From: Rhodococcus maanshanensis NBRC 100610
GTDB lineage: Bacteria > Actinomycetota > Actinomycetes > Mycobacteriales > Mycobacteriaceae
DNA: 33,400 nucleotides
Reading direction: 5' to 3'
Assembly (NCBI RefSeq): GCF_001894865.1
Contig: NZ_BCXA01000023.1
Location: forward strand, 1 to 33,400
This document shows positions 10,848 to 15,402 of the stretch, one piece after another. The notes beneath the pieces are model-generated. The model ran no database searches, had not been told where the DNA came from, and worked only from the letters and a program-made list of their open reading frames with translations. A program made the translations under genes and the position numbers. Position 1 is the stretch's first letter. The number at the start of each line of letters is the position of its first letter.

Positions 10848-11016
10848 TGCTGCCTCCGGGTCTTGAGTGCTTCGGGAATTTCCGATCGCGAAGGGGGAAG
10901 AGTGGCGAATGCCTCGAGGTCCCTGTCCGATTGACCGAACCTGGCGCTGGGGAAGTGCGTCAGGGTCGGCGTTCGGGCAGAGGCCTCGCGGCACTCGCCG
11001 TATGGCTCTGGCCGGG

Positions 11017-11448
11017 CTAGAAGATCTCGCCCAGTGACTCGGCTCTGGCTTGTGAGTAGCTCTCTTCGTGCTCCTCGAGGTAGTTCTGCCACGCCTGCGC
11101 GTCCCAGATCTCGAGGAAATCGACCGATCCGATCACCACGCACTCCTTCGACAGCCCCGCGTAGCGGCGGTGGTCGGCGGAGAGAGTGATCCGTCCCTGG
11201 GCGTCGGGATGCTGCTCGTCGGTGCCTGCCGCCAGGCCGCGCACGAACGCGCGGGCCTCTGGGTTGCTGCGTGATGCTGCGGCGGCTCGGCGTGCGAGAG
11301 CTGCAAACTCTTCTCGGGGATACACCGCGAGGCTGTGGTCCTGCCCTTTCGTGACCATCAACCCTCCCGCCAGTGCATCTCGAAACTTCGCGGGCAACGT
11401 CAGTCGCCCCTTGTCGTCGAGCTTCGGCGTGTAGGTACCGAGAAACAC
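11017..11448 (-). CDS. mraZ: MraZ, AbrB-like transcriptional regulator of the dcw cluster
   Basis: DNA-binding regulator that controls its own dcw operon in other bacteria. The protein reads [25 protein letters not shown], the first SpoVT/AbrB-like half, and then [33 protein letters not shown], the second half, so the usual two-repeat MraZ fold is complete. The start is the GTG at 11448, preceded by TGGAGGTG about 6 nt away. This gives 143 residues, the length I recall for the M. tuberculosis protein. A longer in-frame start at 11508 has no support. First gene of the dcw run. Three 10-bp-spaced GTGG repeats about 75-100 nt upstream are its likely autoregulatory site. Confidence 0.95.
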
Positions 11449-11521
11449 TCGACACCTCCACCCTGCGTTCCGATTCGAACGTCCTAGGCCCTCGCGGTCC
11501 GTCTGCACGTTCCGCTGCGCA

Positions 11522-11545
11522 CCACGTTACCCCACTTTCCTCCAC
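11522..11545 (-). promoter_or_regulatory. Putative MraZ boxes upstream of mraZ
   Basis: Read on the minus strand, GTGG occurs at 11545-11542, 11535-11532 and 11525-11522, so three copies sit exactly 10 bp apart (GTGGAGGAAA, GTGGGGTAAC, GTGGTGCGCA). MraZ is known to bind short TGGG-type direct repeats with one helical turn of spacing upstream of mraZ. The position, about 75-100 bp before the start codon, fits. The binding itself is inferred. Confidence 0.6.
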
Positions 11546-11615
11546 TTTCAATGCCAATTTTGGGTTCCACGACCGCAATTCGCATGAAAAGACCAGTTCA
11601 CAGCGGTGGTGCAAT

Positions 11616-11788
11616 GTGGGGAAAAGCTGTGCGATCTTCCCCACTGCCGGGGCGCCACGGCGAGCTTCGCCACTTGCCCGCACCGAAATCCCAGGTCAGA
11701 GGTCCGCAGCGAGACACTCCCCCAGGGCCGGACCGACCCGGGGGGAAATGTGGGGGAAAAGTGGGGAAAGTCGGGGCGAACGCGGGGA
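11616..11788 (+). promoter_or_regulatory. Second group of GTGGGGA motifs (possible distal MraZ sites)
   Basis: The plus strand has GTGGGGAA at 11616-11623 and its exact inverted copy TTCCCCAC at 11637-11644. Further on, a tandem run has G4-A/C blocks at 11753-11757, 11763-11767, 11773-11777 and 11784-11788 (spacings 10, 10 and 11), the first two being TGTGGGGGA and AGTGGGGA. No coding sequence explains this. The motif resembles the boxes next to mraZ but lies in the opposite orientation and about 170-340 bp from the mraZ start. Confidence 0.4.
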
Positions 11789-11910: not shown

Positions 11911-12339
11911 CTACTCCTGTTCGAATCTCCGCTTGAACCGGTCCTCCATGCGCGAGGAGAACCCTCCACTGCTGCCGCCCTTGCGGCCGTCAGAACGCTT
12001 GCCTGCGGCCGACCCCTTCGCGGGCCTGCCGGCCTCGTCGGGCACTGCCGTGAGGCCCTTCTTCGATCCCCGCATGAGGAACAGGACCCCGGCTCCAAAC
12101 ATCACTACGAATCCGAGCAGGCTGATGATCGGGAAACCGCCCGGCTTGAACGGGAGCGCAACGCCCGCGACCAACAGGACGAGTCCGAGAAAGAAGAGCG
12201 CTCCGGCCTGGAGTCGACGCTTGCTCGAAGCCGCACGCATACGGCCTCCCCTCACGGAGGAAGCAAACTTCGGATCTTCGGCGTAAAGCGCGCTCTCGAT
12301 CTGATCGAGCATCCGCTGCTCGTGCTCGGAGAGTGGCAC
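11911..12339 (-). CDS. DUF3040 family small membrane protein (Rv2169c-like)
   Basis: A 142-residue protein of unknown function that starts PLSEHEQRMLDQIESALYAEDPKFASSVR, the DUF3040 signature. Two membrane helices follow at about 63-79 (AGALFFLGLVLLVAGVALPF) and 85-107 (FPIISLLGFVVMFGAGVLFLM), then a basic Gly/Ser/Arg-rich cytoplasmic tail. The GTG at 12339 has GGGGGAGG about 5 nt upstream. A strong terminator follows it and a TATCAT -10 candidate precedes it, so it may be a single-gene unit. The family sits next to mraZ in many actinobacteria, suggesting an envelope or division role, but no function can be read from the sequence. Confidence 0.88.
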   Translation of the reverse strand: MPLSEHEQRMLDQIESALYAEDPKFASSVRGGRMRAASSKRRLQAGALFFLGLVLLVAGVALPFKPGGFPIISLLGFVVMFGAGVLFLMRGSKKGLTAVPDEAGRPAKGSAAGKRSDGRKGGSSGGFSSRMEDRFKRRFEQE

Positions 12340-13003: not shown

Positions 13004-13068
13004 CTTCCGAACACCTCCTGCGCAACCACGCCGACCCGCCGCGACGACCGGTCAGGCCTTAGGGTCGG

Positions 13069-13107
13069 AATCCGGCGAAGCCCGCTTCCCTCGCGCTTCG
13101 CCGGATT
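13069..13107. repeat. 13-bp perfect inverted repeat in the divergent control region
   Basis: AATCCGGCGAAGC at 13069-13081 is repeated in exact inverted form at 13095-13107, with a 13-nt spacer. Flanking TCGG/CCGA can extend the stem past a single bulged G. It lies in the HEPN gene leader, next to the SOS box. It could be an operator dyad or an RNA hairpin in a long 5' leader. Confidence 0.8.
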
Positions 13108-13114
13108 GCCGACA

Positions 13115-13130
13115 TCGAACATCCGTTCGA
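13115..13130. promoter_or_regulatory. LexA (SOS) box
   Basis: TCGAACATCCGTTCGA is a perfect TCGAAC-N4-GTTCGA palindrome, the LexA-binding consensus established for mycobacteria and related actinobacteria. It lies in the 173-bp divergent gap, 47-62 bp before the GNAT start and 112-127 bp before the HEPN start. It could control either or both. Next to it (13132-13142) is the short dyad ATATTCAATAT, and TATAGC at 13140-13145 could be a plus-strand -10 for the GNAT gene. LexA binding is inferred from the match. Confidence 0.75.
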
Positions 13131-13176
13131 CATATTCAATATAGCTGCCCCCACCGACACGTCGTCAAGAGAGAGG

Positions 13177-13815
13177 GTGAGTCCGGTCGGTATCAACACG
13201 ACACCGCTGCTGGTCGAGCTGTCCGCGCAGGAACTACGGCACCGCCTTGCCGAGGCTCTCGCCATCTACGTCGAGGCGATGGACTACCCGAAGGGGACCG
13301 AGTTCCACCGGGCCCCGATGTGGACCGAACACACCCATCGGCCCGGCTGGCGCGCGGTCGCCGCGATCCTCCCCGGCGACGATCCCCGCTCGAGCGAGGG
13401 CACCATGGTCGGCATCGCCTACGGCTACCGGGGCGCCCCGCACCAGTGGTGGCACCAGCAGGTGCGCGAGGGGATGCACCGGTCCGGTGCCGACGAACGG
13501 CGGATCCACGAGGTCCTCGGCGACTACTTCGAGCTGACCGAACTCCATGTGGCACGTGCCGCGCAGGGACACCGCACCGGCGAGGCGATGCTCCGCAGGC
13601 TCCTCGAAGACAGGCCGGAGAGTCACGTACTGCTGTCCACCCCCGAGGTCGGCGACGAGGACAACCGCGCCTGGCGTCTCTATCGCAGGCTCGGATTCAC
13701 CGATGTGATGCGACATTTCACCTTCACCGGGGACAACAGGCCGTTCGCGGTGCTGGGACGCCTGCTGCCGCTCCCCACCGAAGCGACCGAGAACGCACAC
13801 TCCCCCAGCCGATAG
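13177..13815 (+). CDS. GNAT-family N-acetyltransferase (Rv2170-like)
   Basis: A 212-residue GNAT-fold protein. It opens with LSAQELRHRLAEALAIYVEAMDYPKGTEFHRAPMWTEH, similar to Rv2170. The acetyl-CoA site is probably LHVARAAQGHRTGEAMLRRLLED (about 128-150), with R/Q-x-x-G-x-G/A-like spacing, followed by LLSTPEVGDEDNRAWRLYRRLGF, the usual late GNAT strand-helix. Rv2170 has been reported to acetylate isocitrate dehydrogenase in M. tuberculosis; the same role here is only inferred. The GTG at 13177 follows GAGAGAGG. It begins 47 bp after an SOS box and is followed 9 nt later by the CrtO-like gene, so the two are probably co-transcribed in part. Confidence 0.85.
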   Translation: MSPVGINTTPLLVELSAQELRHRLAEALAIYVEAMDYPKGTEFHRAPMWTEHTHRPGWRAVAAILPGDDPRSSEGTMVGIAYGYRGAPHQWWHQQVREGMHRSGADERRIHEVLGDYFELTELHVARAAQGHRTGEAMLRRLLEDRPESHVLLSTPEVGDEDNRAWRLYRRLGFTDVMRHFTFTGDNRPFAVLGRLLPLPTEATENAHSPSR

Positions 13816-13824: not shown

Positions 13825-15402
13825 ATGATCGACGCGGTGGTGGTGGGATCCGGACACAATGCGCTGGTGTCGGCGTGCTACCTCGCCCGGTCGGGCTGGT
13901 CGGTCGAGGTGCTCGAGCGCGACACCGTGCTCGGCGGCGCGGTGTCGACCGTCGAGCGGTTCCCCGGCCATCAGGTGGACCGCGGTTCGTCCGCGCACAT
14001 CATGATCCGGCACACCGGCATCATCGAGGACCTCGACCTCGCCTCGCACGGGCTGCGTTATATCGACTGCGACCCATGGGCATTCGCGCCCGCTCCGCTC
14101 GAATCCGGCCGGCCGGGCATCGTCTTCCACCGCAGCCTCGACGGGACCTGCGCCTCCATCGCCGCGTCCTGCGGGGCCGCCGACGCGAGGGCTTACCGGG
14201 AATTCGTCGAGACCTGGGGTCCGCGCACCGCAGGCGTGATGCGGGCGTTCGCCGGTCCGCCGACCGGCGGGAGGCTGGCCCGCTCGTTCGGCACCCTGGA
14301 CCGGGGCGCAGGCGCCGCGGCCTTCTCACGGGAGTTTCTCGCCTCCGGGGACAGCTTGCTGGACAACTACTTCGACGACGAGCGCCTCAAGGCGGCATTG
14401 GCCTGGTTCGGCGCGCAGTCGGGTCCACCGATGTCCGAGCCGGGCACCGCCCCGATGGTGGGGTTCGCGGCGCTGATGCACACCCTGCCGCCGGGCCGGG
14501 CCGTCGGCGGGAGCGGCGCCCTCACCAGGGCCCTGGCGTCGCGGCTCGCCGCGGACGGTGGATCGGTGCGACTGGGCGACGCGGTGACCGAGCTGCGCCG
14601 CACGCCGAACGGCTGGACGGTACGCACCGCCGAGGGCCGGGAGGTGCGCGCGAGGACGGTGGTGGCCGGCTGCCACATCCTGACCACCCTCGACCTGCTC
14701 GAGCGCGGCGGCCACGACCGGACGCAACTGGACGGGTGGCGCCGCCGGATCCGGGTCGGGCCGGGGATCGGAATGGTGGTCCGGCTCGGAACCGATTCGC
14801 TCCCCTCCTATCCCAGCGCCCCCGAGGGCGACACCGTCACCTCCGGGCTGCAGCTACTGGTCTCCGATCGCGCACAGCTGAGGCTCGCGCACGGCGCGGC
14901 GCTGGCGGGCGAGCTGCCGCCCGTTCCAGCGGTCCTCGCCATGAGTTTCAGCGGGATCGATCCGAGCCTGACCCCAGCGGGCGAGCACCAGGCGACGCTG
15001 TGGTCGCAGTGGCATCCCTACGCCCTCACCGGCGGACGCGCCTGGGCGGACCTCGCCGAATCCGAGGGAGACCGGATCGTCGCCGAGATCGAGCGGCTGG
15101 CACCGGAATTCACGGACTCGGTGCGACACCGGCTGGTGCAGACCCCCGCGGACCTCGAGTCCGAGATGGGGTTGATCGGCGGCAACGTGATGCACGTCGA
15201 GATGTCGCTGGACCAGATGTTCATGTGGCGACCCCTCCCGGAACTGTCGGGACACCGGGTGCCGGGCGCGAAGGGGCTGTACCTGACCGGCGCGTCCACC
15301 CACCCGGGTGGCGGAGTGTCCGGCTCGAGTGGGCGCAGCGCCGCGCGGATCGCGTTGTCCGACGCCCGGTTCGGAGGCTTGCGCCGGGTGCTGCGCCGAT
15401 GA
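13825..15402 (+). CDS. crtO: CrtO-type carotenoid ketolase / phytoene-desaturase-like FAD oxidoreductase
   Basis: A 525-residue flavoprotein. The N-terminal dinucleotide site is DAVVVGSGHNALVSACYLARSGWSVEVLERD, followed by LGGAVSTVERFPGHQVDRGSSAHIM. The C-terminal FAD motif is GLYLTGASTHPGGGVSGSSGRSAARIAL. The overall pattern, including FGAQSGPPMSEPGTAPMVGFAALMH and GGSGALTRALASRL, strongly resembles from memory the Rhodococcus CrtO beta-carotene ketolase, which adds keto groups to the beta-ionone ring. Related PYROXD2-like proteins without known substrate are an alternative. crtI and crtB lie 3-8 kb downstream, which supports a carotenoid role. It follows the GNAT gene by 9 nt and has its own leaderless promoter candidate. 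The enzyme class is certain; the substrate is inferred. Confidence 0.78.
   Translation: MIDAVVVGSGHNALVSACYLARSGWSVEVLERDTVLGGAVSTVERFPGHQVDRGSSAHIMIRHTGIIEDLDLASHGLRYIDCDPWAFAPAPLESGRPGIVFHRSLDGTCASIAASCGAADARAYREFVETWGPRTAGVMRAFAGPPTGGRLARSFGTLDRGAGAAAFSREFLASGDSLLDNYFDDERLKAALAWFGAQSGPPMSEPGTAPMVGFAALMHTLPPGRAVGGSGALTRALASRLAADGGSVRLGDAVTELRRTPNGWTVRTAEGREVRARTVVAGCHILTTLDLLERGGHDRTQLDGWRRRIRVGPGIGMVVRLGTDSLPSYPSAPEGDTVTSGLQLLVSDRAQLRLAHGAALAGELPPVPAVLAMSFSGIDPSLTPAGEHQATLWSQWHPYALTGGRAWADLAESEGDRIVAEIERLAPEFTDSVRHRLVQTPADLESEMGLIGGNVMHVEMSLDQMFMWRPLPELSGHRVPGAKGLYLTGASTHPGGGVSGSSGRSAARIALSDARFGGLRRVLRR

Follow-up and report, generated by a model that had tools for sequence, protein, structure and literature searches.

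The HEPN gene in the stretch of DNA analysed here (33,400 nucleotides of Rhodococcus maanshanensis NBRC 100610, contig NZ_BCXA01000023.1; below, the window) probably stands behind a damage-inducible promoter controlled by LexA and PafBC, and its product would act as a helper of error-prone DNA synthesis. The locus itself is likely what is left of an operon for damage-induced mutagenesis; its promoter would take two inputs, and its leader RNA lies outside Rfam. This would tie a widespread PF18726 protein to damage-induced mutagenesis, a driver of mutation under antibiotic stress, and it would draw attention to a promoter in which both regulators may meet and to a leader RNA with strong covariation. 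The features concerned are collected in Table 1.

Table 1. Features of the HEPN locus, in window coordinates.
Feature	Position	Strand	Remarks
mraW RNA element (RF01746)	10897..11002	-	72.5 bits; loop ACUUCCCC contains CUUCCC
mraZ, head of the division (dcw) cluster (presumed from sequence and position)	11017..11508	-	homologue adjoins DUF3040 in relatives
DUF3040 / SCO2097-family gene	11911..12339	-	next gene 3' of HEPN; PF11239 99.9 bits, NF058603 145.8 bits
HEPN (SAV_6107-like) protein, 165 aa	12506..13003	-	PF18726, 107.6 bits
RNA hairpin in HEPN leader	13063..13112	-	stem CCGGCGAAGC/GCTTCGCCGG, loop AGGGAAG; covariance model R1
LexA operator (SOS box), predicted	13115..13130	.	palindromic, 0 mismatches; start site of the HEPN gene expected nearby
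RecA-NDp/PafBC-type promoter, predicted	13138..13159	-	TGTCGGTG-N8-TATATT; toward HEPN, ends 7 nt before the box
GNAT acetyltransferase, divergent neighbour	13177..13815	+	PF00583, 21.8 bits; probably not box-controlled
CrtO-like oxidoreductase	13825..15402	+	264.6 bits vs CrtO cut-off of 1000 bits

Probable operator and promoter of the HEPN gene

A sequence-only reading of the window had reported a perfect SOS box in the divergent gap between the HEPN and GNAT genes, and both parts of this claim hold: the site TCGAACATCCGTTCGA has 0 mismatches to TCGAAC-N4-GTTCGA and lies in that gap. Perfect sites occur only twice in the 5.67 Mb genome, against none for a backwards control pattern, and the other one (C60:16237) falls within an ORF. 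Weaker matches are abundant, with 45 box-like sites at up to three mismatches in the window (16.8 expected) and 782 at up to two mismatches in the genome (237 for the backwards pattern); 12 of the 20 near-perfect boxes inspected in this genome fall within ORFs. Since loose matches are this common, one of them alone means little, and it is the perfection, the intergenic position and the conservation of the box that carry weight. As controls from the same genome, lexA and an error-prone-type dnaE gene are each preceded by a box with one mismatch. Further one-mismatch boxes precede or touch four DUF222 genes, of which three carry an HNH domain, and another precedes a whiB gene (the set L250, L251, L255, L259, L256).

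The sequence-only reading had proposed to look for the box in the same gap of relatives, and it is conserved there, far beyond Nocardia and Rhodococcus. Within the genus, a perfect box lies 5' of HEPN in 6/6 genomes. Among 64 family loci (66 minus two second copies of a genome; the best HEPN matches plus one or a few per genus, hence not a random sample), scanned from 450 nt upstream to 30 nt inside the HEPN match, a box with up to two mismatches was found in 58, compared with 7/64 for the downstream region and 0/64 for the backwards pattern. The best site has 0, 1, 2 and 4 mismatches in 25, 19, 14 and 6 loci, respectively, and the six loci with no box at up to two mismatches all belong to genera g4, g5 and g8. 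A closer HEPN alignment (A2) gave 80 named loci, several of them strains of one species, and 79 carry a box with 0 (21 loci), 1 (9) or 2 (49) mismatches. The sole miss (L103) is on a MAG contig of a Rhodococcus sp., where neither the box nor the promoter motif could be recognised ahead of HEPN, possibly owing to misassembly.

Across the class, PF18726 is present in 197 of 296 sampled genomes. Fourteen of the best 30 HEPN matches of the class (L067-L096) have a box with at most one mismatch; the other 16 are L083, whose contig starts just upstream, and 15 loci of family f20 (probably Streptomyces), none of which has a box at that threshold. Six of the f20 loci (L072, L081, L085, L089, L091, L093) hold a conserved TTGAACTGACTGGTCAGTGC element together with ATTGTCAGTG 5' of HEPN, at the position that the box takes in other families, and this is another control site. 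In a set of 20 further families, one genome each, limited to families whose HEPN place is known (those without HEPN or with its place not shown were excluded; f10, f33, f37 and f42 are already present in the best-30 set), the box is perfect in 18, has one mismatch in f18 and is absent from f39. This conservation, in 58/64 family loci and 18/20 further families, supports the damage control of the HEPN gene that had been proposed. We hold with high confidence that the site is a genuine LexA operator, with predicted LexA binding, and that it serves the HEPN gene rather than the GNAT-crtO unit.

The second control element is a RecA-NDp/PafBC-type promoter, whose consensus we take to be TTGTCRGTG-N8-TANNNT. 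The genome contains 22 exact TGTCRGTG-N8-TANNNT sites, and the backwards control gives 0. With up to two mismatches the motif occurs in 79 of the 80 named loci, at a distance from the box of 7 nt in 23 loci and of 16-18 nt in 56; the two spacings differ by roughly one turn of the helix. The motif is not present everywhere, as a regular expression passes in 43 of the 58 boxed family loci and finds none in 15. Judged by this conserved motif, the gene would belong to the PafBC (RecA-NDp) regulon, and co-control of the HEPN gene by PafBC appears very probable. In the available parts of PMC8223512 and PMC11804915, recA is the known example of one gene under both PafBC and LexA, and mycobacterial recA resembles the present locus in combining a RecA-NDp element and an SOS box in one promoter region. 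However, recA has two promoters, P1 and P2, whereas the box of the HEPN gene lies 7 nt past a single -10, so the two inputs may act on one start site.

By sequence, the HEPN gene very probably belongs to the LexA (SOS) regulon, with a conserved palindromic TCGAAC-N4-GTTCGA in its promoter. Operator sequence and promoter position are those of the actinobacterial regulon described for C. glutamicum, Mycobacterium and Streptomyces venezuelae; the difference is that the gene controlled in the window encodes a HEPN protein. Regarding LexA binding and RecA-dependent induction, membership is suggested by analogy with cg2381, a named LexA-regulon gene of C. glutamicum that rose on ciprofloxacin with an M value of 3.86 (PMC5055667, in the part available). 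The C. glutamicum genome carries PF18726, cg2377 is mraW according to the accessible portion of PMC3890552, and the small-genome g3 loci (probably Corynebacterium; L204-L206) show the order GNAT-HEPN-DUF3040-mraZ, from which we infer that cg2381 is the HEPN gene. If so, induction of this gene would already be known in C. glutamicum.

A conserved hairpin in the HEPN leader

Judging from the aligned sequences, the HEPN leader holds a conserved hairpin with a GGGAAG loop, and its predicted structure is supported by covariation. The leader folds with a z of -2.88. The hairpin set comprises 46 rows, 40 of them distinct (L097-L099 not included). Over the 40 distinct sequences, changes on both sides were observed in 13 of 14 pairs, and 87.0% of hairpin cells pair against 70.3% in shuffles, with 0/500 shuffles reaching any of five measures; these figures lean in favour of the structure, because its prediction used the very alignment that is scored and the sequences had been chosen for their loop motif and stem pairing. 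Hairpin structures slid along the alignment give 22.6-48.0% pairing. The stems over the 46 rows contain 48 G-U against 8 A-C pairs, which argues for an RNA of HEPN sense, although the offsets, set so as to favour G-U, bring in some bias.

A covariance model of the hairpin (R1) finds a single copy above 31 bits in its own genome, at 59.2 bits, and the next match has 30.8 bits. It finds one match each in 82 of 201 family genomes, covering 16 of 31 genera, and all 82 matches lie 91-427 nt 5' of HEPN on the same strand; 58 of the 82 are outside the training set, an upper bound, since some of them may also be represented among the named training loci. In Rfam 15 the hairpin matches no family (up to E 5), and the sole match in the window is the mraW RNA. 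The hairpin was not found in the Nocardia HEPN loci. The model was built mostly on the window's family and hardly finds the hairpins of other families, its best match in the 20 further-family genomes being 25.6 bits (E 0.035). A regular expression combined with a stem count, applied to 19 of these 20, identified a GGGAAG hairpin of 12-14 pairs between box and HEPN in f9, f18 and f24 and weaker hairpins in f13 and f10, each of 10 pairs; the 14 remaining genomes gave no such hairpin. The twentieth genome, f39, was scanned apart and without a stem count, and has a GGGGAAG hairpin ahead of DUF6504. Similar GGGAAG hairpins lie between box and HEPN, or 5' of HEPN, in f2, f3, f41, f8, f11, f12, f22 and f30.

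A leader peptide was considered and rejected. An ATG or GTG within the box opens a reading frame in several relatives; that of the window (13122) is out of frame with HEPN (13003), and in L003 the frame continues into HEPN. The feature common to the relatives is the hairpin instead.

The HEPN protein and its polymerase neighbours

The HEPN protein belongs to the HEPN_SAV_6107 family (PF18726), with a profile score far beyond the curated cut-off of 27.2 bits and a domain that spans residues 50-144. An AlphaFold2 model based on 38 sequences (alignment A4, 38 of 39 references, L157 left out) places helices between residues 34 and 149, with 94 residues at a pLDDT of at least 90, and these predicted helices would fit the domain. 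The match to 2hsb at the sequence level is weak (E 0.06).

The gene content of the HEPN locus in other families is what points to a role in DNA synthesis. A polymerase gene is present in 15 of the 20 further-family loci (a raw count, without a control-gene baseline): DinB in 13, DnaE in 10, an ImuA'-ImuB-DnaE2 set in one (f19) and a DnaE2 5' of the box in one (f33). In 13 of the 20 genomes a perfect box precedes HEPN, followed by a DinB, DnaE-type or ImuA'-ImuB-DnaE2 gene on the same strand; the exceptions among the 15 are f39, which has no box, and f33, where the order is reversed. No polymerase was found in the fetched stretch of the other five, namely f9 and f17 (short contigs), f14, f18 and f21. 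The remark of the sequence-only reading that neither flanking family is known in DNA repair therefore needs revising, given bypass- or DnaE-type polymerases at these 15 HEPN loci. A literature search, carried out mostly without full texts, found no link of the SAV_6107 HEPN family to bypass polymerases.

The fullest arrangement, in f8 (L237), reads box-DUF6504-HEPN-DnaE-DinB-DUF3040, and its DinB exceeds the cut-off of its model. The DnaE proteins of L237 and L238 (f8 and f11) score 660.6 / 640.2 and 654.7 / 658.7 bits with the error-prone and replicative models, respectively, and exceed only the superfamily cut-off, so that the scores do not separate the subtypes. In f2 the order is HEPN-ImuA'-ImuB-DnaE2, with ImuA' and DnaE2 beyond their cut-offs. 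DUF6504 is found in 11 of the 20 further-family loci, often as the first gene of HEPN-DnaE-DinB loci (L237-L242, L276-L286). Modules of the DnaE2B-PolY-ImuB-C type in Actinobacteria were described in a 2026 survey, and the further-family HEPN neighbours DUF6504, DnaE and DinB, and likewise ImuA'-ImuB-DnaE2, look similar to these and to its ImuA-ImuB-DnaE2 modules, as far as the available part of that survey goes; the window locus differs in having no polymerases (PMC12926913). The word HEPN does not occur in the survey text available (count 0). It might be guessed that DUF6504 is ImuB-C. As an observation by eye, the end of the f19 ImuB resembles DUF6504, which Pfam did not report there.

Within the window's family, two genera (g12 and g18; L187, L192) show HEPN-DinB-DUF3040 behind a perfect box, and most HEPN loci have no polymerase adjoining HEPN. 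The window itself has no DnaE, DinB or ImuB gene beside HEPN, and thus no bypass-polymerase (mutasome) operon, and the four IMS (Y-family) matches of the genome lie on other contigs (C5, C8, C17, C22). The lone HEPN gene seems to be all that survives here of an SOS mutagenesis operon, and the simplest history would be that the polymerases were lost from the locus in this lineage.

Alternative readings and proposed mechanism

Two alternatives turn on what remains where HEPN has been lost. The box might mainly control the divergent GNAT-oxidoreductase unit, whose damage induction the sequence-only reading had considered; the GNAT start codon is 46 nt from the box, and a GNAT homologue lies across the gap in the family loci fetched widely enough. 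HEPN is present in 186 of 201 family genomes, and 14 of the 15 without it belong to genus g29 (probably Mycobacterium), where 11 loci were examined, 10 of them with GNAT as well as DUF3040 resolved. In all 10 of these gaps, with HEPN lost and GNAT kept, there is neither a box with at most one mismatch nor an NDp motif, and the best box-like sites have 2 (one gap), 3 (two) and 4 (seven) mismatches. The control elements thus go with HEPN, and on this comparison GNAT-crtO was rejected as an SOS target. In the 20 further families, moreover, the box stays with HEPN and a GNAT homologue occurs only in f15 and f18, far from the box in both, and the NDp promoter is oriented toward HEPN, which leaves a main role in GNAT control extremely improbable. 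The label crtO itself stands only in that the oxidoreductase is CrtO-like, as its score is far under the CrtO cut-off. The other alternative is base pairing between the GGGAAG loop of the HEPN leader and the CUUCCC loop in the mraW RNA, which would tie damage to division-gene expression. The mraW RNA (RF01746) is present in 199 of 201 family genomes and, like the leader element, is a hairpin with a conserved loop in the same neighbourhood; the leader hairpin differs in its position, its complementary loop and its place outside Rfam. The two conserved loops are complementary over exactly 6 nt at a distance of about 2 kb, and loops of 7 nt suit kissing complexes. Yet the mraW loop is kept in g29, without HEPN, and in Nocardia loci that gave no match to the HEPN hairpin, and in g28, the only case available, the HEPN loop reads AGGGGATG and the mraW loops remain CTTCCCC, with no compensating change. 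In C. glutamicum, moreover, the observed mraW transcript begins near the 3' end of the motif, according to the accessible part of PMC3890552, and such pairing is very doubtful.

Two further alternatives concern the protein. It was suggested that an R-X5-H match at residues 152-158 marks a damage-induced ribonuclease or growth-arrest toxin, and HEPN domains are often RNases (PMC3710099, in the portion seen); an SOS gene adjoining the division cluster would also suit a checkpoint. The match exists, but it occurs at those columns in only 1/68 and 1/38 aligned proteins and lies past the Pfam domain, in a stretch (151-165) with a pLDDT below 50, a disordered tail, and its catalytic reading is therefore rejected. 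Subclades have R-X4/5-H at other columns (135-141 in 21/38 and 14/68; 59-64 in 16/68), which could favour a ribonuclease, but no R-X4-6-H is conserved across the 68- and 38-row alignments, and the table in the available part of the HEPN review scores the SAV_6107-type family as without a conserved motif (PMC3710099). There is no MNT nucleotidyltransferase partner among the five window proteins scanned (the neighbours being DUF3040, GNAT, the oxidoreductase and LppM), and DNA polymerases are found at the locus in other families. A ribonuclease or toxin is thus quite improbable, and a non-catalytic binding role would be the likeliest for the protein. Somewhat less remote, yet still unlikely, is a role for HEPN in division or the envelope: as a factor of the dcw region under borrowed SOS control, it would serve as a checkpoint on DUF3040/mraZ. 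In most family loci DUF3040-mraZ directly follows HEPN on the same strand, the NCBIfam match of the DUF3040 gene is to a 'morphological protein' family, and in C. glutamicum mraZ goes down while cg2381 goes up (PMC5055667, available part). However, in f2 and f19 HEPN is accompanied by ImuA'-ImuB-DnaE2, and the stretch there showed no DUF3040.

For the preferred reading, a damage-inducible promoter of a gene that assists error-prone synthesis, the following mechanism is proposed. LexA, bound to the box beside the start site, would block HEPN transcription; position and conservation of the box are observed, and binding is predicted from them. When ssDNA appears, RecA would trigger LexA cleavage. 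PafBC, which ssDNA activates as well and which is established in mycobacteria as directing RNA polymerase, would steer it to the -26/-10 element that immediately precedes the box, as the motif suggests. The HEPN transcript would carry the GGGAAG-loop hairpin ahead of the start codon. Since a perfect box, HEPN and a same-strand polymerase occur together in 13 of the 20 further-family genomes, the most likely role of the protein is that of a small helper in error-prone synthesis, without catalytic activity of its own. In the window's lineage the locus has no polymerase genes, and HEPN stands alone ahead of DUF3040-mraZ. That HEPN acts in damage-induced synthesis is slightly favoured on this genomic context. 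More tentatively, HEPN could act in the error-prone polymerase complex of actinobacteria, as a non-catalytic subunit or regulator that has gone unrecognised. It would be produced on damage from a promoter requiring both LexA release and PafBC, and the leader hairpin, a new RNA element, would tune this, for example through HEPN binding its own leader or through pairing of the hairpin loop with the mraW RNA, which would couple division-gene expression to damage.

Some minor observations concern the surroundings of the locus. Of the named relatives found, Rhodococcus oryzae is the closest, with a HEPN identity of 90%, and LppM is among the plus-strand neighbours together with GNAT and the CrtO-like oxidoreductase. 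Four loci (L108, L109, L126 and L228) contain two mraW-type hairpins in tandem. Repeats of the GTGGGGAAA type lie 5' of mraZ, at 11520-11560 and 11740-11775 of the window, and are perhaps MraZ operator repeats.
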